From positions 1 through 64,000 of the forward strand of contig NZ_BOLS01000004.1 in assembly GCF_016861785.1 (NCBI RefSeq): a stretch of DNA of 64,000 nucleotides, read 5' to 3'. Source of the stretch: Lacticaseibacillus mingshuiensis (GTDB lineage Bacteria > Bacillota > Bacilli > Lactobacillales > Lactobacillaceae). Numbering within the stretch: the first letter of the stretch is position 1; every line of letters begins with the position of its first letter. Below the pieces are notes generated by a model. The model made no database searches, had not been told where the DNA came from, and was given only the letters and a program-made list of their open reading frames with translations. This document shows, piece by piece, positions 8,903 through 21,964 of the stretch. The position numbers were made by a program, and so were the translations under genes.

Positions 8903-9808
8903 ATGAATTTCAGGACAATATATGTGACTAGCCATGCAAAAGTCACGACACTCAGTAACAACCTTGTCGTGCAAACTGACAACGGAACGAAGACGATACC
9001 TTTGGAAGATGTCCATCTATTGGTGTTAGGAACACCGCAAGTAACGGTGAGCGGTATGGCTATTAGTGCGTTAGCGCGAACAGGTGCAAAAGTTCTCTTT
9101 ACCGGACCGAATGGCAAGCTATCGGCCGAGACTATGAATATGTATAGCACTGGGCGCAGTGCTTCAACTATCGTATCGCAGGTCCTGTGGGATGTTGAGT
9201 TGATGAGTGTTGTATGGACAAAGATCATCGGCGCGAAACTGAGCATGCAGGTACAAGTTCTGGAAGCTATGCAAAAGAATGCTTCCTTGGTGCGGATGCC
9301 CCTTGAAGAAATGGAACTGAATGATGTTACAAATCGAGAAGCCGTCGCCGCTCGCAAGTATTTTCCGGAGCTGTTTGGCAGTGGCTTTTCTCGAAGCAAT
9401 ATTGATGCAACGAATGCAGCCCTCAATTACGGGTATCAGATACTACTGTCGCATGTGAATTTAGAAATAACGGTCAACGGCTATATGACGGAGTTAGGAA
9501 TTCACCATCAAAGCGAAGAAAATCAATTTAACCTAGGATCGGATCTTATGGAGCCCTTTCGTCCATTCATTGATTTGTGGGTGTCACGCCAGAAATTCAA
9601 GGAACTCACGCCTGATGTAAAGGTTGGACTGCTTGATAATATGAACACGGTCATCAAGTATAACGGAAAGAATACACTACTCCGAAATGCAATTCCTGAC
9701 CACGTTAATCGTTGCTTGCGTTTTTTAAATGGAAGTCTTGATGAACTCCAAATGGAGGTGCGACTAGCTGATGAGGTATCGAGTGATGAGACTAATGGTG
9801 ATGTTTGA
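8903..9808 (+). CDS. cas1: Cas1 integrase
   Basis: The 301-aa type II Cas1 is the catalytic subunit of the spacer-integration complex. Metal-binding residues are visible as Glu146 (TNREAVAARKYF), His201 (GIHHQS), and Glu217 with Asp224 (DLMEPFRPFID). AAGGAGG lies 8 nt before ATG 8903. The gene overlaps cas2 by 38 bp, so the two are probably translationally coupled. Confidence 0.97.
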   Translation: MNFRTIYVTSHAKVTTLSNNLVVQTDNGTKTIPLEDVHLLVLGTPQVTVSGMAISALARTGAKVLFTGPNGKLSAETMNMYSTGRSASTIVSQVLWDVELMSVVWTKIIGAKLSMQVQVLEAMQKNASLVRMPLEEMELNDVTNREAVAARKYFPELFGSGFSRSNIDATNAALNYGYQILLSHVNLEITVNGYMTELGIHHQSEENQFNLGSDLMEPFRPFIDLWVSRQKFKELTPDVKVGLLDNMNTVIKYNGKNTLLRNAIPDHVNRCLRFLNGSLDELQMEVRLADEVSSDETNGDV

Positions 9809-10091
9809 CTTACCAGTTGAAACGAGCGCAGAACGCCGAGCATATCGCCAGTTTCGAAAAGGGATGATCAGGGAGGGCTTCTTTATGATGCAATACTCTA
9901 TATATGTCCGGGTTTGTCCTAATCGAAAGTCTGCTCAATTTCTTGAACAGCGTATTGCTAATTTGGCTCCAGAGGCCGGCGTGATTCAGACGATGCTTAT
10001 TACTGAAGCTCAATATCAAGCCGTGAATTTTATTGCTGGAAAGGCCAGCGATGACATTCGAAATTCACCAGAAAGGACGATTGTCATATGA
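9771..10091 (+). CDS. cas2: Cas2 adaptation protein
   Basis: The 106-aa protein has the standard II-A Cas2 start MRYRVMRLMVMFDLP with Asp13, and the RRAYRQFRK and QYSIYVRV blocks that form the ferredoxin-like fold. The start was kept at 9771 despite the 38-bp overlap with cas1, because the first fifteen residues belong to the fold. It bridges two Cas1 dimers during spacer acquisition. The end overlaps csn2 by 4 bp. Confidence 0.96.
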   Translation: MRYRVMRLMVMFDLPVETSAERRAYRQFRKGMIREGFFMMQYSIYVRVCPNRKSAQFLEQRIANLAPEAGVIQTMLITEAQYQAVNFIAGKASDDIRNSPERTIVI

Positions 10092-10771
10092 CTACTTTGA
10101 CATATTTCCCGTATGCACCAATCACTCTATTACCAGGAAAGGCTACAGTTGTTGACACTGCGTCTCCTCGAGTTTATATGGACCTTTTAGATGGTATTCG
10201 CCAAGAGAAAGATATCTTGGTGTTTGCCAATGAGCAGACGAAAGTGGTTGATACTAGCAAAGCTGCAACTTGGTATGGAGATATTCTGCTGGAGGTGGAT
10301 CTAGACAAACTCTTTCAACGGCTGATTATCAAACAACTTCTTGCTGTTATCTCAGATGAATCAACAGTCAAGTTGATCGATGAGGCAAAGGAAATGCTTC
10401 GTCTCGTACTTGAAAGCTCATTCAATTTAGACATTCCGCTCGACGTCTCGCTGACACCGACATTGGAGAATATTGTTAAATTTTCAGGATTAAGTTTCAG
10501 TCCCGAAACAAAAGCAGACCCATATGCTACACTTGAGGTACTTCTAAGGACACTTGTTGAACTGGAAAATGTCAAAATTCCGGTTCTAACAAACCTGAGC
10601 CACTATCTTGATGTCAACCAGTTGAATCAACTAGCAGGATTAGTGGCAGGAACTGGCATGGCCGTTCTTGACATTGAATTTTCATCTATCTCTCGACATA
10701 GCTTATTCGAAGAATGCCAGTATATCTGGATTGATTCGGAGTTTAACGATTCTCGAGGAGAACGAGAATGA
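10088..10771 (+). CDS. csn2: Csn2 adaptation protein
   Basis: The 227-aa protein has the position, length and overall composition of the short Csn2 group, a ring-forming DNA-end binding protein needed for spacer acquisition in type II-A. Similarity is recognised mainly from the locus; it starts inside the cas2 stop (ATGA overlap). Only 21 bp separate its stop from the first repeat, so leader sequences needed for integration must overlap the end of this gene. Confidence 0.92.
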   Translation: MTTLTYFPYAPITLLPGKATVVDTASPRVYMDLLDGIRQEKDILVFANEQTKVVDTSKAATWYGDILLEVDLDKLFQRLIIKQLLAVISDESTVKLIDEAKEMLRLVLESSFNLDIPLDVSLTPTLENIVKFSGLSFSPETKADPYATLEVLLRTLVELENVKIPVLTNLSHYLDVNQLNQLAGLVAGTGMAVLDIEFSSISRHSLFEECQYIWIDSEFNDSRGERE

Positions 10772-10792
10772 GATTTTCATGTCAGAACATCG

Positions 10793-13700
10793 GCCTTAGA
10801 TAGATGTCAGTTCAATCAGGGTCAGCACTTTCATACCTTCGGCCAAGACATCTTGACGGCCTTAGATAGATGTCAGTTCAATCAGGGTCAGCACTGAATT
10901 TGGCTTTGCTCGGCTGGTCTATCGGCCTTAGATAGATGTCAGTTCAATCAGGGTCAGCACGCGTGCTGTACACGCCTTTAGACCTTGTAGGCCTTAGATA
11001 GATGTCAGTTCAATCAGGGTCAGCACACGCAGTTTACCTGGGTCAACGAGCAGTTCGCCTTAGATAGATGTCAGTTCAATCAGGGTCAGCACTTGAAATT
11101 GAAAACCCATATCGGTACCGGGGCCTTAGATAGATGTCAGTTCAATCAGGGTCAGCACCACGCGTTTGTGCCTTAGACCATACATTCGGCCTTAGATAGA
11201 TGTCAGTTCAATCAGGGTCAGCACACGGGAACCCGTTGCGCCACCACGGTTAGTGCCTTAGATAGATGTCAGTTCAATCAGGGTCAGCACGTAAATTGTT
11301 GTTTTCTGTAGCCATAACTAGCCTTAGATAGATGTCAGTTCAATCAGGGTCAGCACAGCCGTGGCTACTGAAACTATTCCATTCCAGCCTTAGATAGATG
11401 TCAGTTCAATCAGGGTCAGCACAGAAGCAAGATAGACACCGCAATAGATACGGCCTTAGATAGATGTCAGTTCAATCAGGGTCAGCACTCACCGAAGCGG
11501 CTGACGGCATGAGCACGCGCCTTAGATAGATGTCAGTTCAATCAGGGTCAGCACGCAGCATTCGTGACTTCTACTGGCGACACTGCCTTAGATAGATGTC
11601 AGTTCAATCAGGGTCAGCACTGAAATGAAAAGTGATACCGTAACAATTACGCCTTAGATAGATGTCAGTTCAATCAGGGTCAGCACGCTGGTGTGTTGGT
11701 TGATGGCTTGACGTAAGCCTTAGATAGATGTCAGTTCAATCAGGGTCAGCACTGACTGGATCATCACGCATCCGTATTCTGCGCCTTAGATAGATGTCAG
11801 TTCAATCAGGGTCAGCACTGAACATAAGAGAGACGGACCTTGCCGGTTGCCTTAGATAGATGTCAGTTCAATCAGGGTCAGCACTGATAATTAAAATGGC
11901 ACGTAAGTCTTACTGCCTTAGATAGATGTCAGTTCAATCAGGGTCAGCACATCCAAACATTGGTATTTAATACAAAAGATGCCTTAGATAGATGTCAGTT
12001 CAATCAGGGTCAGCACCTTTCTGTATCTACTATAGCTCCATGAATGGCCTTAGATAGATGTCAGTTCAATCAGGGTCAGCACTGAATGGTCATGAGCTTG
12101 CTGTTGCCCTTCGCCTTAGATAGATGTCAGTTCAATCAGGGTCAGCACAACAGCACCACAAACTACAGGGTGGCGCTGGCCTTAGATAGATGTCAGTTCA
12201 ATCAGGGTCAGCACCCGCATGTTGGGGTGCACACGTCGTGATGGGCCTTAGATAGATGTCAGTTCAATCAGGGTCAGCACTCCCTGTGGCCAAGCTACGT
12301 CCAGTTGGTTGCCTTAGATAGATGTCAGTTCAATCAGGGTCAGCACACAAAGCTGGCAAGATAGGTAACCTTGACTGCCTTAGATAGATGTCAGTTCAAT
12401 CAGGGTCAGCACAAACTAACCCAGCAAGAAATCGACAGCATGGCCTTAGATAGATGTCAGTTCAATCAGGGTCAGCACAATCTGGAACGGGCTTCGCTCA
12501 TTTGCTGGGCCTTAGATAGATGTCAGTTCAATCAGGGTCAGCACTAATTTCCAGCGTTGCGCTGGTCATGCCAGGCCTTAGATAGATGTCAGTTCAATCA
12601 GGGTCAGCACAGGAGAATAGCGAGCGTGGACTAAATGCAAGCCTTAGATAGATGTCAGTTCAATCAGGGTCAGCACTTGCTCCCTTCCCCCCGTGGTCGG
12701 AAAGATGCCTTAGATAGATGTCAGTTCAATCAGGGTCAGCACCGTTGTCCCTGTGTAGCTGTTAGCAACAGTGCCTTAGATAGATGTCAGTTCAATCAGG
12801 GTCAGCACTCAGGGCCTGCAGGTTCAATACGTTGATGAGCCTTAGATAGATGTCAGTTCAATCAGGGTCAGCACAGAACTTGAGGCGTTTTCTGCCAAGC
12901 GCGTGCCTTAGATAGATGTCAGTTCAATCAGGGTCAGCACTGTTGTCAGCGTAGGATTGCTAAGATTTAAGCCTTAGATAGATGTCAGTTCAATCAGGGT
13001 CAGCACGCAGGTTCCAGGTCTGCATGGCCAGCATCAGCCTTAGATAGATGTCAGTTCAATCAGGGTCAGCACCGTATCGCTTGGCCTCTTGGTCTTGGTA
13101 CAGCCTTAGATAGATGTCAGTTCAATCAGGGTCAGCACCCAAATAAAGAAAGGACATTAACAATGAATGCCTTAGATAGATGTCAGTTCAATCAGGGTCA
13201 GCACACGCAGTGCGGCGAGCTTTTCGTCTAAAGTGCCTTAGATAGATGTCAGTTCAATCAGGGTCAGCACGTCAATTATGAGGTAGTGTTTTACGAGTTC
13301 GCCTTAGATAGATGTCAGTTCAATCAGGGTCAGCACCATTCTTCGGAATCACCAGTTTCTTGATCTGCCTTAGATAGATGTCAGTTCAATCAGGGTCAGC
13401 ACACATCAATAGTGTTTTCGCACATCCGATTGGCCTTAGATAGATGTCAGTTCAATCAGGGTCAGCACAAGCCTGGGCCTTAACATCTCCAATGTCGTGC
13501 CTTAGATAGATGTCAGTTCAATCAGGGTCAGCACGAAAAAATATACGATTGCAGAAGGTAAGTTGCCTTAGATAGATGTCAGTTCAATCAGGGTCAGCAC
13601 AAAGGGGTACGCGCTTTCCACCTTGTATGAGCCTTAGATAGATGTCAGTTCAATCAGGGTCAGCACCATCGAACATGCCATTGTGGTCTGGGTCATGCCT

Positions 13701-14789
13701 TAGATAGATGTCAGTTCAATCAGGGTCAGCACTACAACGTCTATCTCGGCACTGGCGGGGTAGCCTTAGATAGATGTCAGTTCAATCAGGGTCAGCACCA
13801 TCGACACCAGGCAATGGCGCGGTGACAGGCCTTAGATAGATGTCAGTTCAATCAGGGTCAGCACCCCTCATCCTCGACGCCCTGACCAAGCTCGGCCTTA
13901 GATAGATGTCAGTTCAATCAGGGTCAGCACCCGACGACCTAGACGACATCGCCCCCGACAGCCTTAGATAGATGTCAGTTCAATCAGGGTCAGCACCTGC
14001 CGGGCGGAAGCTTCGACTGTGATGACGCCTTAGATAGATGTCAGTTCAATCAGGGTCAGCACCAGTTGATGAGCTAGGCGATGTAATCATGGTGCCTTAG
14101 ATAGATGTCAGTTCAATCAGGGTCAGCACGTAAACATTCCCGCCGCCAATATAGATCTTGCCTTAGATAGATGTCAGTTCAATCAGGGTCAGCACCGGCG
14201 GCGTCCACGTACCAGCCTAAGGGAAGCCTTAGATAGATGTCAGTTCAATCAGGGTCAGCACAACGCCGGGCTTCAAATTCAAACGACCTCAGCCTTAGAT
14301 AGATGTCAGTTCAATCAGGGTCAGCACCGCCACGCTATACAAGTCAATAGTGTGAACGCCTTAGATAGATGTCAGTTCAATCAGGGTCAGCACCGATGCA
14401 TGGACTTCGACACAGCCACGTCTGCCTTAGATAGATGTCAGTTCAATCAGGGTCAGCACCAAGGCTCAGCAGTTCGACGTGAAGCGCATGCCTTAGATAG
14501 ATGTCAGTTCAATCAGGGTCAGCACTTTATCGATTGCTGCATATAGTTCTCGAGTGCCTTAGATAGATGTCAGTTCAATCAGGGTCAGCACCGCTTGTGC
14601 CACCGGTGAATGAGGCGGTCGGCCTTAGATAGATGTCAGTTCAATCAGGGTCAGCGCCGTTGATGACGAGCTCGTCAATCGAGTAGAGTCTTAGATAAAT
14701 CTCAGTTCCATCAGGCTCAATATATGATCAGACTATGTATTTACTACCCCCGTACCTTAGATAGATGTCAGTTCAATCAGTGTCAGCTC
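10793..14789 (+). CRISPR. type II-A CRISPR array, 61 repeats / 60 spacers
   Basis: The 36-bp repeat begins GCCTTAGATAGA and ends CAGGGTCAGCAC. The period is 66 bp with 30-bp spacers; one spacer (14063-14093) is 31 bp. Repeats 1-58 look identical. Repeat 59 (14622) has one change, repeat 60 (14688) eight and repeat 61 (14754) three, so the 3' end is the old end and new spacers enter next to csn2. Anti-repeat pairing shows crRNA is read from the plus strand. Several spacers look phage-like, for example one with a ribosome site and start codon (AAAGGACATTAACAATGAAT), but I could not identify targets. Confidence 0.98.
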
Positions 14790-15269: not shown

Positions 15270-18053
15270 ATGACAAAACACTTTGAGCTTGATGGCCAGA
15301 CATATGAGCTGGTCACGATCGCACAGGATCAAAGTCATGCGCAAAAAGGGCCAATCGTGATCTATCGGCGGCCAGGCACTCAGCAGTATTTTGTGATACC
15401 TCAAGATGAGCTGATTTCTAGAACGAAGCAGCAAAAACCGGTGGATTGGTCAGCGCGCTTGACTCTATTTAAGTCACTTTTTGTGGGCCGAACTGATGTG
15501 TATGCGAACCGGTACTGGAACAAAAGGGCAGAGAAAAAGGCTTATGCGCCAGCCGCGCCATTTGAGAACGGCCGGCCTTCTCGCACTCACCATTTCGAAC
15601 TGACCGATGCGGTTTTGCTTGATCATCTGCGTGGCAGTCAAACACGGTCAGGAGATACGGCGATTGGCCTTTATCCTTTGGCGGAGGACAACACCACTAA
15701 ATTTTTGGTATTCGATATTGATGGTCACCACGCCGATCAGCCGTGGCAAGGGCTCAGCGAGTCGATAGTAAAAGTTTGCCGAGAAGCGGGACTCGCGCCA
15801 CTTGTTGAATTGTCGCAATCCGGCAGTGGAAGTCATATTTGGCTGCTTTTCGCGACGCCGCTTGCGGCATCGATCGCGCGTCGGTTGGGGGATGAGTTGC
15901 TGAAGGCCACGCAGGCAATCGACCCGCGCCTACCGTTCACGGCATTTGACCGGCTATTTCCTGCACAGGACCAACTTGGACCCGGACAATTTGGTAATTT
16001 GATTGCCGCGCCGTTGGAAGCTCATGCGGCTAGAGATGGGCAGAGTGTCTTTGTGGATGAGGCTTGGAAACCATTTTCAGATCAATGGGCCGTTCTTGCG
16101 AAAGCTGACCGGCTCTCGTCTGCAAAGGTGAAAGAGACGATCGATCGGCTTTCGCAGCGGGCTGGCTTTCGACTGTATGATGAGGCGGATGAGGAAGACG
16201 AACCCGACATCTTTACCCAGCCTTACCAGATCACCAAGCCGCTGACGATCATTCGCGCCAATGCGCTATATGTGCTGAAGGCGGATCTAGATGCAGAGGC
16301 GCTGTTGCATTTGAAGTGGCTCGCGTCGTTTCGCAATCCTGTGTTCTATGAGCGCCAGAAAAACCGTATGCCGGTTAATCTGACACCGCGCATCATCAGT
16401 CTTTATCGCGAATCGCCCACGTATCTGATCTTGCCGCGTGGGCTGGAGGATCAGCTGGCGGCAATGGTGGCCTCGATCACTTGGCAGGATAAGGTGGCAA
16501 CCGGCACGCCGCTTGATGTGCACTTCAATGGGACGTTGCGGCCGAATCAGGTCCCCGCATTCAATGCCATGATGGCCAACGTGAACGGGATTTTAGCTGC
16601 GCGAACCGGGTTTGGCAAAACGGTGATCGGCGCCAATCTGATTGCCAAACGCGCGGTCAGTACGTTGATTCTTGTTCCCAATAAGACGCTGGCTGAGCAG
16701 TGGCGGAAAAGTTTGCAGCAACTTTTGACGATCAACACTGCGCCGACTGTAGTGGAACACACGCCTTCTGGACGCAAACGTCGTAAGCCCATCATTGGGA
16801 CGTATTATGGACAAAAGAAAAATTGTAGTGGCCTCGTCGATATTGCGACCGTCCAAGCTGTCAGCCGGCTCCAAGATTCGCGCACTTTTCTAGATCGATA
16901 CGGTATGGTGATCAGCGATGAGGTCCATCACGATGCCGCGTCCACTTTTGACCGGGTGATCGGTGGGCTTCGTGCGCGCTACCTTTATGGGTTGTCAGCG
17001 ACCCCATACCGCCGCGATGGGCAGGCACCAATCTTGACGATGCGTTTTGGACCGATTCGTTTTCGCACTGAGGCAGTGGACCCTGAGTTTGCGCTGAGCG
17101 TGCAGCGGACGGTGATCCCGCGGTTCACGAATTTTGGCATGACAGATCTTGAGACTCTGAAAAATGGAATCGTGGAAAATCGTACTGCGATGCTACATGA
17201 TGAGGCGCGTGATGCCGTGATCATTCGCGATATCAAGAATGCATTGAAGGCCGGTCGACATCTCATTGTGCTGACCAGTCTCGTGGAACATGTGGATCAA
17301 CTCTATAGTCGGGTGAAAGACGCCAATGTGTATCGCATTTACGGCCGCTTTTCAGCAAAGGAACGCAGTGAAGAGATCACACGAATCAAGGCAGAGACCG
17401 GGCCATATGTGATTTTAGCCACGACAGCTACGGCTGGAGAGGGGCTCGATATCGCGACGCTGGATACATTACTGCTCGCGATGCCGATCGGTTATCACGG
17501 TAATCTTGAGCAGTACCTCGGCCGGATGCATCGAGACCTCGGGGCGAAATCGTCGCTGATCGTGTACGATTATGTCGACATGTTTGTGCCGATGTTGATG
17601 CGAATGTATCGCAAGCGACGCAAGACCTACCAAGCGCTGGGGTACACGATCTCGGAAGATGCCTTCACCAAGCAGCGTGGGCCACAGGTCTTTGACGGCC
17701 ATTGCCAGGTGGCGCTGTCGCAGGCCCTGTCAGCTGCGTCCTCTGTTATGGTGGTTGTCCCGCGGGCCGGCCGATTTTTACAAGCAAGATTGGAAAATTC
17801 GCTCATGCCGGAATGCACTGCAGAGGTCTACACGCAATTCGAGCCAACCCTGCCAATCTCAGCCAACAGCCACTTGCACCTTGCCGCTTTCGCTTTGCCA
17901 AATTGTGTGGTCATCGATGGGCGTCAGCTTTGGATCAGTATTGATGCGGGATTTGAAAATAATCGTGGGATGACGATACGGTTGGATCATCCGGAGCTCG
18001 TTTCTCAGTTAGTGAAGATGATGGCGGATAATGAAGGGCGATTGCCACTTTGA
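15270..18053 (+). CDS. TOTE-type archaeo-eukaryotic primase fused to SF2 helicase
   Basis: The 927-aa protein has an N-terminal primase-polymerase-like domain: FLVFDIDG gives the DxD pair Asp149/Asp151, GSGSHIWLLF gives His189, and GQFGNLIAAP is the later basic/Asn motif. It is followed by an SF2 helicase: GFGKT Walker A at 447-451, LVPNKTLAEQW, DEVH at 550-553, SATPYRRDG and QYLGRMHRD. This is the TOTE conflict-system architecture, proposed for defence or for mobile-element replication. The final ~150 residues have no motif I recognise. AAGGAG is 13 nt before ATG 15270, which is long. It directly follows the CRISPR array. Confidence 0.85.
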   Translation: MTKHFELDGQTYELVTIAQDQSHAQKGPIVIYRRPGTQQYFVIPQDELISRTKQQKPVDWSARLTLFKSLFVGRTDVYANRYWNKRAEKKAYAPAAPFENGRPSRTHHFELTDAVLLDHLRGSQTRSGDTAIGLYPLAEDNTTKFLVFDIDGHHADQPWQGLSESIVKVCREAGLAPLVELSQSGSGSHIWLLFATPLAASIARRLGDELLKATQAIDPRLPFTAFDRLFPAQDQLGPGQFGNLIAAPLEAHAARDGQSVFVDEAWKPFSDQWAVLAKADRLSSAKVKETIDRLSQRAGFRLYDEADEEDEPDIFTQPYQITKPLTIIRANALYVLKADLDAEALLHLKWLASFRNPVFYERQKNRMPVNLTPRIISLYRESPTYLILPRGLEDQLAAMVASITWQDKVATGTPLDVHFNGTLRPNQVPAFNAMMANVNGILAARTGFGKTVIGANLIAKRAVSTLILVPNKTLAEQWRKSLQQLLTINTAPTVVEHTPSGRKRRKPIIGTYYGQKKNCSGLVDIATVQAVSRLQDSRTFLDRYGMVISDEVHHDAASTFDRVIGGLRARYLYGLSATPYRRDGQAPILTMRFGPIRFRTEAVDPEFALSVQRTVIPRFTNFGMTDLETLKNGIVENRTAMLHDEARDAVIIRDIKNALKAGRHLIVLTSLVEHVDQLYSRVKDANVYRIYGRFSAKERSEEITRIKAETGPYVILATTATAGEGLDIATLDTLLLAMPIGYHGNLEQYLGRMHRDLGAKSSLIVYDYVDMFVPMLMRMYRKRRKTYQALGYTISEDAFTKQRGPQVFDGHCQVALSQALSAASSVMVVVPRAGRFLQARLENSLMPECTAEVYTQFEPTLPISANSHLHLAAFALPNCVVIDGRQLWISIDAGFENNRGMTIRLDHPELVSQLVKMMADNEGRLPL

Positions 18054-18097
18054 GATTTTCTCTTTGCACGACGACGTTCCACCTAATTCATTCAAAA

Positions 18098-18133
18098 GGG
18101 CGATCGCAGATCTTTGCGCGGTGTGCCTTTTTT
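18098..18133 (+). terminator. terminator of the primase-helicase gene
   Basis: GGGC (18098-18101), CGCA/TGCG and GCC (18125-18127) form an interrupted stem followed by six T. Confidence 0.55.
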
Positions 18134-18166
18134 GAATCTCGGGAGGCCTGAGCAGCAGACCTGAGG

Positions 18167-18898
18167 CCGCTATGTACCTCCGACCCCACTGCAAGTCGGA
18201 GGGTGGCACGTTTCGCTTCGCTGCAGTGGAAACGAAGCGAGCTGTGCCGTTAATGCTCTTTGGCGCTTTCTTTGGCATCCGTGCCGCCGCCATATCGATT
18301 GCTGGTGCAGGTTGGAGGAAGTTTAGGCTTAGAATTTCGCTGACCTTCCCGCTCCCGAAGAAGCAGGCGTCCGGCTCAAGATGGGACGCATTCCAGTCCT
18401 ACAAACAAAGGTGGGCTGCACGACATTGTGTGGATGCCGGTAGTGCTATTCGGTTGTCAAAGAGCGTGACATGGCGTTGCCGCCGGGGACGTTGCAACAT
18501 TTCTGGCTCGCCGAGGCGAACCGTGCGTCTTTCATCATTGTTGGATCTTTGAGTCGCCGCCATAACCAGACGCTGGTGCGGGTTGAAGGAAGTATTGGCT
18601 TAGAATTTCGCTGACCTTCCCACTCCCGAAGAAGCAGGCGTCCGGCTCAAGATGGGCCGCATTCCAGTCCCACAAACGAAAGTGGGCTGCACGACATTGG
18701 ATGAAAGACTTAGGTGGGAGTCCGGACTCCCATGGTGCGGGTGGCGCTGAACGCTGCTGATCGGGCGTGCATTCTGTAGGTGTGGTTGTTTCTTGTCAGC
18801 CCGTGTGAGATCGGATGAGTTGCATGCGACTGATCTCACTCGCCGCATACCTATCCGGGGGTCGGTAAGGCCACCACCTTCTCAGGCCTTACACTATA
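18167..18898 (+). ncRNA. large structured RNA candidate, copy 1
   Basis: No protein frame is credible here, but hairpins are dense: CCTCCGAC/GTCGGAGG (18177/18195), TCGCTTCG/CGAAGCGA (18213/18233), TCGCC/GGCGA (18508/18515), palindrome GGGAGTCCGGACTCCC (18717), GTGAGATC/GATCTCAC (18805/18832) and GTAAGGCC/GGCCTTAC (18865/18885). The same architecture recurs 900-920 bp downstream with different but still pairing bases. Within the copy a ~145-nt module (18281-18428, 18554-18699) is repeated. Orientation is assumed plus because the neighbours read that way. Size and ornateness recall GOLLD or ROOL RNAs; I cannot assign it. Confidence 0.6.
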
Positions 18899-19618
18899 TA
18901 AAGCGATTCTCGAGGGTCAAAACGTAAAGTATTTTCGTGTAAATGTTTTGTATACGCGTTCAAATGCCGAAAAGACTGGTTTTGTGAGCTAAATATATTT
19001 CCATAAATTTCGGCGTTTTGGGCTAGACCAGACGCTTCTCATCGGCGCATGTCGGCTGTCAGTGATCCGCTATGTACCCCTGATCCGGTCGGGCCTTTGA
19101 CCGGACTAGGGGCCACACAAGTTGCAATCGGCAGGCCCTCCCCAGTCGCAACTTGTGTGATTACAGTGCTCTTTGAAAAGCTTTTGTGGTATCCGTGCCG
19201 CCGCCATATATCGATTGCTGGTGCAGTAAGCTTAGGTCATGTAGGCTTAGAATTTCGGTGACCTTCCCGCTTCCGAAGAAGAAGGCGTCGTTCTCAAGAT
19301 GGGCCGCATACCCGGTGCTGCAAACAAAGGTGGGCTGCACGACATTGTGTGGATGCCGGTAGAACTTATTCAGCTGTCAAAGAGCGTGACATGGCGTTGC
19401 CGCCGGGGGCGGTGCATTTGTAACGACCTGCTTGCGCAAGCCGTTCGTCTTTCATCTTAGGTGGATCTTTGAGTCGCCGCCATATCGGACGCTGGTGCAA
19501 GTTGGGTGACATATAGGTTTAGAATTTCGGTGACCTTCCCGCTTCCGAAGAAGAAGGTGTCGTTCTCAAGATGGGCCGCATTCAGCTCCTGCAAACGAAG
19601 GTGGGCTGCACGACATTG
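18281..19618 (+). repeat. four copies of a ~145-nt module inside the tandem RNA
   Basis: Copies lie at 18281-18428, 18554-18699, 19195-19347 and 19474-19618. Each starts (T)CGCCGCCAT, contains GCTGGTGC, TTAGAATTTCG, GACCTTCCC, CTCAAGATGGG and ends GGGCTGCACGACATTG. Copies within one large unit and between units are both similar, so an internal duplication preceded the 900-bp tandem duplication. Confidence 0.85.
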
Positions 19619-19815
19619 CGATGAAAGACTATGGTGGGAACCCGGGCTCCCGTGGTGCGGGTGGTGCTGAACGCCTGCTAGCTAGACAAGCTTTCTGAAG
19701 GTGTGTTGTTTCCCCCGACCGCCCATGGAGTCGAATGAATATGCATGCGACAGTCTCCACTTGGGGCATGCTCATCCGGGCGTCGGTAAGAGCCCACCTT
19801 CCTGACCCTTACATA
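19067..19815 (+). ncRNA. large structured RNA candidate, copy 2
   Basis: This is the second copy of the element at 18167, starting with the same CCGCTATGTACC and ending with the same GTAAG...CTTAC hairpin and AAGCGA tail. Stems are kept by compensatory changes: the first is now CCCCTGATCCGGTC/GACCGGACTAGGGG (19077/19099), the second a perfect 12-bp CACACAAGTTGC/GCAACTTGTGTG (19114/19148), the third GCTTG/CAAGC (19430/19437), and the fourth TGGAG/CTCCA (19726/19755) around the same TGCATGCGAC loop. Single-stranded blocks such as TTAGAATTTCG and GTGGGCTGCACGACATTG are almost unchanged. This pattern is expected of a selected RNA structure. Confidence 0.6.
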
Positions 19816-20126
19816 ATATTAAGCGAGTGGGAGCCGGAAAATGTGATCGAGATTTTGATGTTATTTTTCGATGGCGCCGGAAACGTTGCTGTGAAGGGGT
19901 TTTTGAATCACCCCAAATTTTGACCAAGGAATCTTTTTTCGACAAAGTGCTTTCTGAATCGGCGCTTATCTCGGGGCAAACCGAGATCAAAAAATACACA
20001 AAAGTGAAAATATTTCCGCGAGAAATTCAAAAACAACTTTTTTGCCGAGATTGCCGAGACGTCTCCGGGGTGTCGGTTCGAGATGGGCGGACGTACCCCT
20101 AAGCCGCCGCAAAAATCGCGCCACAG
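19816..20126 (+). other. hairpin-rich noncoding stretch downstream of copy 2
   Basis: There is no gene here. Pairing segments include GGGG/CCCC near 19893-19912, ATCTCGG/CCGAGAT (around 19968-19987) and GGGGT/ACCCC (around 20068-20099). It may be the 3' part of the RNA transcript or a further RNA. There is no clear T-run terminator. Confidence 0.35.
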
Positions 20127-20154
20127 AAAAACGCCGCCTCCACTGGAAACGGCG
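20127..20154 (-). terminator. glpK terminator
   Basis: On the minus strand CGCCG pairs with CGGCG (20150-20154/20132-20136) followed by five T. Confidence 0.7.
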
Positions 20155-20165
20155 CCTGATACAGT

Positions 20166-21964
<1,799 letters not shown>

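Follow-up and report, generated by a model that had tools for sequence, protein, structure and literature searches.

A multi-copy family of large structured, probably self-associating RNAs in two Lacticaseibacillus species

The window, by which we mean the whole 64,000-nt stretch of Lacticaseibacillus mingshuiensis DNA that was analysed, holds a tandem pair of large units that are almost certainly genes for a structured RNA. The best explanation as a whole, favoured here with some reserve, is a stand-alone RNA gene on the minus strand that most likely specifies a self-associating RNA. Each unit would be its own gene for a noncoding RNA of ∼730–760 nt, transcribed from its own AT-rich promoter adjoining a conserved 5′ hairpin. 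In the predicted fold, PB and PA are the hairpins of a 5′ domain; two modules, almost identical and with a long closing stem apiece, come next, separated by two hairpins of which one has a GNRA loop, and the long P2 and P1 hairpins lie at the 3′ end. The readings from sequence that carry this model are the structure and its covariation, the copy number, the conserved promoter-side flank, and the complementarity of loops. Such an RNA would be transcribed, would oligomerise into a homo-oligomer of the GOLLD, ROOL or OLE sort, and would have a biological role.

Architecture and covariation of the tandem units

RNA unit 1 (18170–18906, 737 nt) is the downstream member of the pair, with the RNA 5′ end at ∼18906 and the 3′ end at ∼18170, and RNA unit 2 (19070–19826, 757 nt) is the promoter-proximal member; these and all features below are given for the minus strand unless stated otherwise. 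The units are ∼80% identical at a body offset of ∼920 bp, and within each, a module of ∼144 nt occurs in two copies spaced by ∼271 bp, in agreement with the original prediction of two large tandem copies with internal module repeats. The 5′ terminal hairpin of unit 1 (18865–18892) is formed by the stem GUAAGGCC/GGCCUUAC and has the conserved loop GAAGGUGG, for which a CACC segment downstream is a possible pairing partner by sequence match. In the equivalent hairpin of unit 2 (19786–19812), the A.C mismatches of the plus strand become G.U pairs on the minus strand. Hairpins PB (unit 1, 18749–18774; unit 2, 19669–19695) and PA (18715–18732; 19635–19652) follow. The module B core of unit 1 (18555–18696) is closed by the stem GTCTTTCATC (18527–18536)/GATGAAAGAC (18700–18709), and the module A core (18285–18425) by GCTCTTTG (18255–18262)/CAAAGAGC (18458–18465); the corresponding cores in unit 2 lie at 19475–19615 and 19199–19344. 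Between the modules of unit 1 are a hairpin at 18505–18522 and the GNRA tetraloop hairpin at 18473–18484, which reads GGCG-GCAA-CGCC here and GGCG-GAAA-CGCC or GGCU-GAAA-AGCC elsewhere.

Covariation was assessed on a minus-strand alignment of 14 full units from two species, with a composed, RNAalifold-derived structure of 205 pairs. Standard pairs occupy 94.1% of the cells of this structure against a shuffled mean of 90.9 (sd 0.2), and pairing falls to 37.8–42.4% when the structure is slid by 1–3 columns. Both sides change at 38 pairs, against 22.6 (sd 2.8) in shuffles, and the covariation score of 0.162 compares with 0.110; none of 500 shuffles reaches any of the three values (94.1%, 38 and 0.162), whereas the number of further pair types (102) is not above chance (shuffled 100.0; reached by 140 of 500). 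The structure was taken from the alignment on which it is tested, and duplication and mosaic exchange connect the units, so that the shuffle and slide controls overstate the certainty of these figures; the evidence from the P1/P2 and PB loops depends less on that alignment. A strand-neutral scan that admitted Watson–Crick pairs only returned 27 helices, and in ten of these picked by hand, 34 of the 71 pairs have at least two Watson–Crick types. Both paired changes quoted in the original prediction are present, TCGCC/GGCGA to GCTTG/CAAGC in the inter-module hairpin (18505–18522) and GTGAG/CTCAC to TGGAG/CTCCA in the other end domain, and its claim of selection on RNA structure is borne out by the covariation. 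The module blocks are near-invariant, with 87% mean column identity over 32 modules, and the 3′ half (P2 and P1) aligns poorly across types.

Protein-coding and pseudogene readings were rejected. Only one unit of 14, C2:131972, has a longest stop-free frame above the 95% level of its shuffles (176 codons against 170), the other 13 staying below it, and gap runs in the alignment are most commonly 1 or 2 nt long; several units are overlapped by minus-strand frames, the longest of ∼191 aa. The original prediction was to fall if homologues had a conserved protein frame or lacked covariation; no conserved frame was found, and covariation is present. With an extent of >∼500 nt, an elaborate covarying structure and no conserved frame, the units have the characteristics of a large ornate noncoding RNA, and the size and complexity anticipated for them, in the range of GOLLD and ROOL, hold at ∼730–760 nt and 205 pairs.

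Reading strand and conserved flank

The original prediction took the plus strand by default; its structure stands, and the minus strand is the more likely one to be read. A plus-strand RNA was abandoned on the strength of tetraloops, folding energies, mismatch types, folding of the P2/P1 region and flank conservation, evidence that is in part mixed, and we regard minus-strand reading as very probable. On the minus strand, C(UUCG)G closes the module hairpin in 30 of 32 modules, and the inter-module hairpin has a GNRA loop in all 14 units (GCAA in 11, GAAA in 3), 13 of them found by pattern and the fourteenth (L092, GCAA) by reading; the stem of this hairpin changes from GGCG/CGCC to GGCU/AGCC in two units. 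The mean minimum free energy (MFE) z-score of the 14 units against dinucleotide shuffles is modest on the minus strand (−1.83) and near zero on the plus strand (−0.73), where the global MFE is not significant. RNAalifold does not discriminate between the strands, with energies of −337 (minus) and −330 (plus) and covariation parts of 171.9 and 173.9, respectively. The P2/P1 region folds lower on the minus strand in nine of 14 units, a comparison made on stretches that are not exactly alike, and lower on the plus strand in the other five (C14, C19:5787, C2:132887, C9 and G027:C6); because of these five, our confidence in the minus strand was lowered slightly. Among distinct variants of the ten picked helices, A.C combinations outnumber G.U on the plus strand (69 vs 45, p 0.031), as they do in the terminal hairpin alone (10 vs 0) and in the cells of all 27 scan helices (235 vs 207), whereas three of the ten (P2o, J1 and PA) have more G.U than A.C among distinct variants.

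The flanks are also asymmetric. When the nine loci are compared in 36 pairs, identity in the adjoining 60 nt is 73.5% on the minus-strand 5′ side and 58.2% on the 3′ side, against 57.3% for shuffled sequence. Rich in A and T, the conserved flank closes with boxes such as TATAGT or TATTAT directly before the first hairpin, with weaker boxes at some loci and a −10-like box that differs among loci. In unit 2, this flank occupies 19813–19890 (GATCACATTTTCC ... CGCTTAATATTATG, minus strand letters), and in unit 1, a promoter-like site is found at 18893–18920 (TTGACC, 16 nt, TATAGT; 10/12). A scan with the promoter consensus was at chance level (2 found vs 1.6 expected), and the proposed site of unit 1 is based on the conservation of the flank at nine loci and not on the scan. 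No consistent terminator was found.

Complementary loops, palindromes and probable association between molecules

P2 and P1 are long adjacent hairpins at the RNA 3′ end, with loops that are complementary to one another. In unit 1, the P2 loop (hairpin 18205–18248) reads TGCAGTGG at 18222–18229 and the P1 loop (hairpin 18177–18202) reads CCACTGCA at 18186–18193; in unit 2, the loops are AGGCCC at 19133–19138 (P2, hairpin 19114–19159) and GGGCCT at 19091–19096 (P1, hairpin 19077–19112), all in plus-strand letters. Across the family, the P2/P1 loops fall into five unrelated types, GGGCCU/AGGCCC, CCACUGCA/UGCAGUGG, GGCGCCAC/GUGGCGCC, GCCGGCAC/GUGCCGGC and UCCCGCUG/CAGCGGGA, in which the typed letters include some bases of the closing stems. 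The longest Watson–Crick stretches within types are 6, 8, 8, 8 and 8, as opposed to 2–4 in the 20 non-cognate combinations, and the cognate sum is reached by none of 20000 letter shuffles. The types are held exactly in 17 of the 21 units having this end, with small variants in the other four (L095_6003, L098_5932, L101_6279 and L107_1), and MFE folding leaves the typed loops partly closed in L096, L101, the window unit at 19070 and the type d units. Of the four tandem pairs, three combine a promoter-proximal unit of type a with a second unit of type b, d or c, and the fourth has type a in both places.

The inner loop tetranucleotide of PB is a palindrome in each of the 19 units that show this hairpin (GTAC in 11, GATC in 5, AGCT in 3), and PB thus has the covarying palindromic loop that is known from OLE; the counts were taken with patterns that specify these sequences in advance, and all 19 can be read in the aligned rows. 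The palindrome extends to six bases in 15 of the 19, as in TAGCTA of unit 2 (19679–19684), the exceptions being three TGATCG loops and one CGTACA, in which the palindrome is limited to the four central bases; unit 1 is of the former kind (plus-strand TGATCG at 18758–18763, GATC core at 18759–18762). A palindromic PB core cannot pair with itself inside one hairpin. The PA apex is CCCGGG in 10 units, TCCGGA in 7 and ACCGGT in 2 (TCCGGA at 18721–18726 in unit 1, CCCGGG at 19641–19646 in unit 2), which is compatible both with a palindrome for kissing and with an ordinary hairpin whose loop is CCGG. In OLE, according to PMC12286853, the L9.3 loop switches from GGCC to GAUC or AGCU, a change taken as evidence of intermolecular pairing (bridge B3). 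The switching palindrome of PB (GUAC/GAUC/AGCU) would be the same signature of symmetric kissing, a device common with OLE and not proof of kinship.

On this basis, the PB palindrome, and perhaps that of PA, would join two identical molecules through symmetric kissing, and the P1 and P2 loops would either clamp one molecule or link P1 to the P2 of the next, chaining molecules head to tail as in phi29 pRNA. In phi29 pRNA, a part of the phage packaging motor, two mutually complementary loops are used between molecules and make rings; by that description, it may serve as a model for P1–P2 pairing, although it is much smaller. Some pairing between molecules is, on balance, probable for the RNA described here, whereas P1–P2 pairing between molecules rather than within one is put forward tentatively. 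If the P1–P2 contact is intermolecular, paralogues would stay separate, as none of the five codes is complementary to another. A more doubtful extension, drawn from the five P1/P2 codes (6–8 within, ≤4 across) and the switching PB and PA palindromes, is that the family consists of paralogous self-assembling RNAs with private loop addresses, each type forming its own homo-oligomer without mixing; if true, two sister species would have evolved an orthogonal assembly code that occurs in nature and is made of RNA alone.

A monomeric structured RNA is an unlikely but serious alternative, in which the P1–P2 kiss would be intramolecular and the palindromes without significance, the RNA acting through a protein or ligand that the invariant module blocks hold. 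It draws on the adjacency of P1 and P2 in one molecule and on the module blocks, whose conservation is as expected of a binding surface, yet it leaves three different palindromic PB cores unexplained by pairing within a hairpin loop, and an 8-bp kissing helix between adjacent ∼14-bp hairpins would presumably be awkward sterically. For the favoured self-associating RNA, the matched P1/P2 loop pairs amount to built-in compensatory mutants, with which specific assembly by loop code, and divergence of the code against cross-talk, become directly testable in vitro.

Distribution, genomic context and relation to known RNAs

The tandem pair that the original prediction described is real and, in a fuller picture, represents one of nine loci of a family with 13 units in the whole L. 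mingshuiensis genome (G000; 2.76 Mb, 56 contigs). Twelve units are complete, and tandem pairs occur at four of the nine loci. The remaining unit, on contig C11 (L097 6574–7050), has a single module; it apparently arose by recombination between modules A and B and is a ready-made natural deletion variant. A survey of the genus gave matches in two of 30 genomes, G000 and that of L. yichunensis 33-1 (G027). At eight of the nine loci, the flanks can be aligned, at identities of ∼82–98%, with an L. yichunensis site that is likewise occupied, implying little recent movement, and the family is thus older than the split of the two species and has mostly been inherited in place since. The ninth (C9) has no partner among the L. 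yichunensis stretches compared. The L. yichunensis assembly breaks at many copies, and the unit ends observed in it number eight at the 3′ side and six at the 5′ side. L. yichunensis also has one unit (L100 7390–8128) where the window has two; in this unit, a 3′ end of one copy's type appears to be joined to the 5′ flank belonging to the other copy, either as a collapsed tandem or as an assembly effect. The yigZ–kup site is empty in the relative G007 (291 bp vs 1457 bp in G000), being ∼1.17 kb shorter, so that an insertion-sized unit is absent there.

Wider searches were consistent with a narrow range. Blastn against plasmids and phages gave no relatives, in sets that may leave out records very near the source genome, and across the taxonomic family it matched two of 397 genomes (two candidates scored per genome). 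Covariance model (CM) searches, with eight candidates scored per genome and weak homologues possibly missed for that reason, returned G000 and G027 plus three weak matches (L114, L115 and L116) among 397 family genomes with the plus-strand model R1, only G000 and G027 among 395 genomes of the order with R1 and among 378 family genomes with the minus-strand model R2, and only G000 among 388 genomes of the class with R2. The weak matches L114 and L116 fall within reading frames, which we take to be mfd-like and xylulokinase-like. A pattern search of genome contigs returned 59 stretches, of which L. yichunensis accounts for 7 and single 19-mer matches for 52 (the latter ≤9.7 bits by nhmmer, ≤20.4 bits by CM), and patterns in viral contigs gave 2, 0, 27 and 5 stretches (≤11.1 bits by nhmmer, ≤16.7 by CM), none of which was taken as a homologue. 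The family thus appears lineage-restricted, being found in two Lacticaseibacillus species only among the genomes searched, and illustrates that large elaborate RNAs can escape family-based searches.

The pair matches no known RNA family. Rfam 15 gave no match at the gathering threshold in the whole 64 kb and, up to an E-value of 10 in 17900–20250, five unrelated weak matches; the comparison with GOLLD, ROOL and OLE called for in the original prediction returned none of the three. A whole-genome search with the ROOL model (RF03087) likewise had no match, but neither did the control genomes. Literature listings on Lacticaseibacillus noncoding RNA, on L. yichunensis and on large RNAs of the GOLLD, ROOL, OLE, HEARO or raiA type contain no report of this RNA. 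In PMC12286853, GOLLD is described as often >800 nt, ornate, with kissing loops and symmetric loops between chains, encoded in phages or prophages and often beside tRNAs, and ROOL as ∼520–660 nt, ornate, with kissing loops, a phage or prophage RNA often near tRNAs with lactobacilli among its hosts; few ornate self-assembling bacterial RNAs are known by that account, GOLLD and ROOL being still without function, and phi29 pRNA is named in its reference list. The same paper counts as ROOL an L. salivarius RNA that, according to Cousin et al. 2017 (PMC5643018), is confined to that species, carried on a megaplasmid and more abundant than 16S rRNA, a useful precedent for a narrow range. The present family resembles GOLLD in being large and ornate with (predicted) kissing loops, and ROOL in size range, lactobacilli hosts, ornate fold, kissing loops and a species-confined member; with OLE it has in common the large extended folded RNA and the palindrome-switching loop. 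It differs from ROOL in being chromosomal and multi-copy, from OLE in its two repeated modules, many copies per genome, five types of complementary P1/P2 loop pairs and an occurrence, among the genomes searched, in two Lacticaseibacillus species only, and from all three in lacking an Rfam match. The best reading is a new class within the large ornate self-associating RNAs rather than a member of GOLLD, ROOL or OLE, and one that offers many natural paralogues in a single lactic-acid bacterium, which are lacking for GOLLD and ROOL.

The cages formed by GOLLD and ROOL are a 14-mer and an 8-mer, respectively. That the RNA is a very diverged member of either is quite improbable: size, ornate covarying structure and lactobacilli hosts would fit, as would the C9 and C11 loci, which have phage-type lysin genes no more than a few kb away, but the Rfam searches were negative, the window contains no tRNA, and the other seven loci have ordinary neighbours, so that the phage and tRNA context typical of GOLLD is wanting. 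Somewhat less improbable is that the units are selfish or non-autonomous mobile DNA, with RNA-like folds that help them spread (e.g. as an unknown RNA-guided or packaged element). Dispersal over nine loci and the empty yigZ–kup site speak for this; against it are the loci common to L. yichunensis, a sign of little recent movement, the ∼20% divergence of units with paired changes, the missing conserved reading frame, and the UUCG and GNRA loops, which suggest a functional RNA. A cis-acting leader or riboswitch-like tandem regulator, to which a module repeated within one transcript and invariant blocks might correspond, is largely refuted, as the gene past the RNA 3′ end is convergent at eight of nine loci, leaving nothing downstream to regulate in cis there; only at C9 is it co-directional. 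The stand-alone RNA gene that we favour is likewise found among neighbours without a common theme (a TOTE-type primase-helicase, a MucBP surface protein, an ECF transporter, a non-specific endonuclease and others), to which nfo, yigZ, kup and rplQ are presumably to be added at further loci from their translations.

Further features were observed around the units. The RNA pair of the window has genes for a TOTE primase-helicase and a glycerol kinase as neighbours; the former, a TOTE conflict-system gene (15270–18053, plus strand; Pfam AEP-TOTE, E 4.9e-63), is convergent to the pair, and its place at the corresponding site of L. yichunensis is taken by another gene, probably formylglycine-generating-enzyme-like. 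At 9771–14600, cas2- and csn2-like genes are followed by repeats translating as ALDRCQFNQGQH, apparently a type II-A CRISPR array. The phage-type genes at C9 and C11 (L096 1644–3392 and L097 8233–11265; two of nine loci) encode a GH25 lysin with a holin and a GH25 lysin with BppU, and are possibly the trace of a phage origin. BLAST between loci revealed a second dispersed repeat family of ∼125 nt, partly tandem, in both species (L095 2203–2471, L097 2099–2385, L098 3666–3969, L101 3973–4384 and L092 8776–8928). Finally, the motif TTTTGAWTC follows a terminator-like T-run upstream of several units. It was rejected as an insertion signal, being overrepresented across the window (8 sites vs 1.9 expected, e.g. 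18130, 19901 and 22828), and therefore looks like a general terminator tail, possibly genome-wide.
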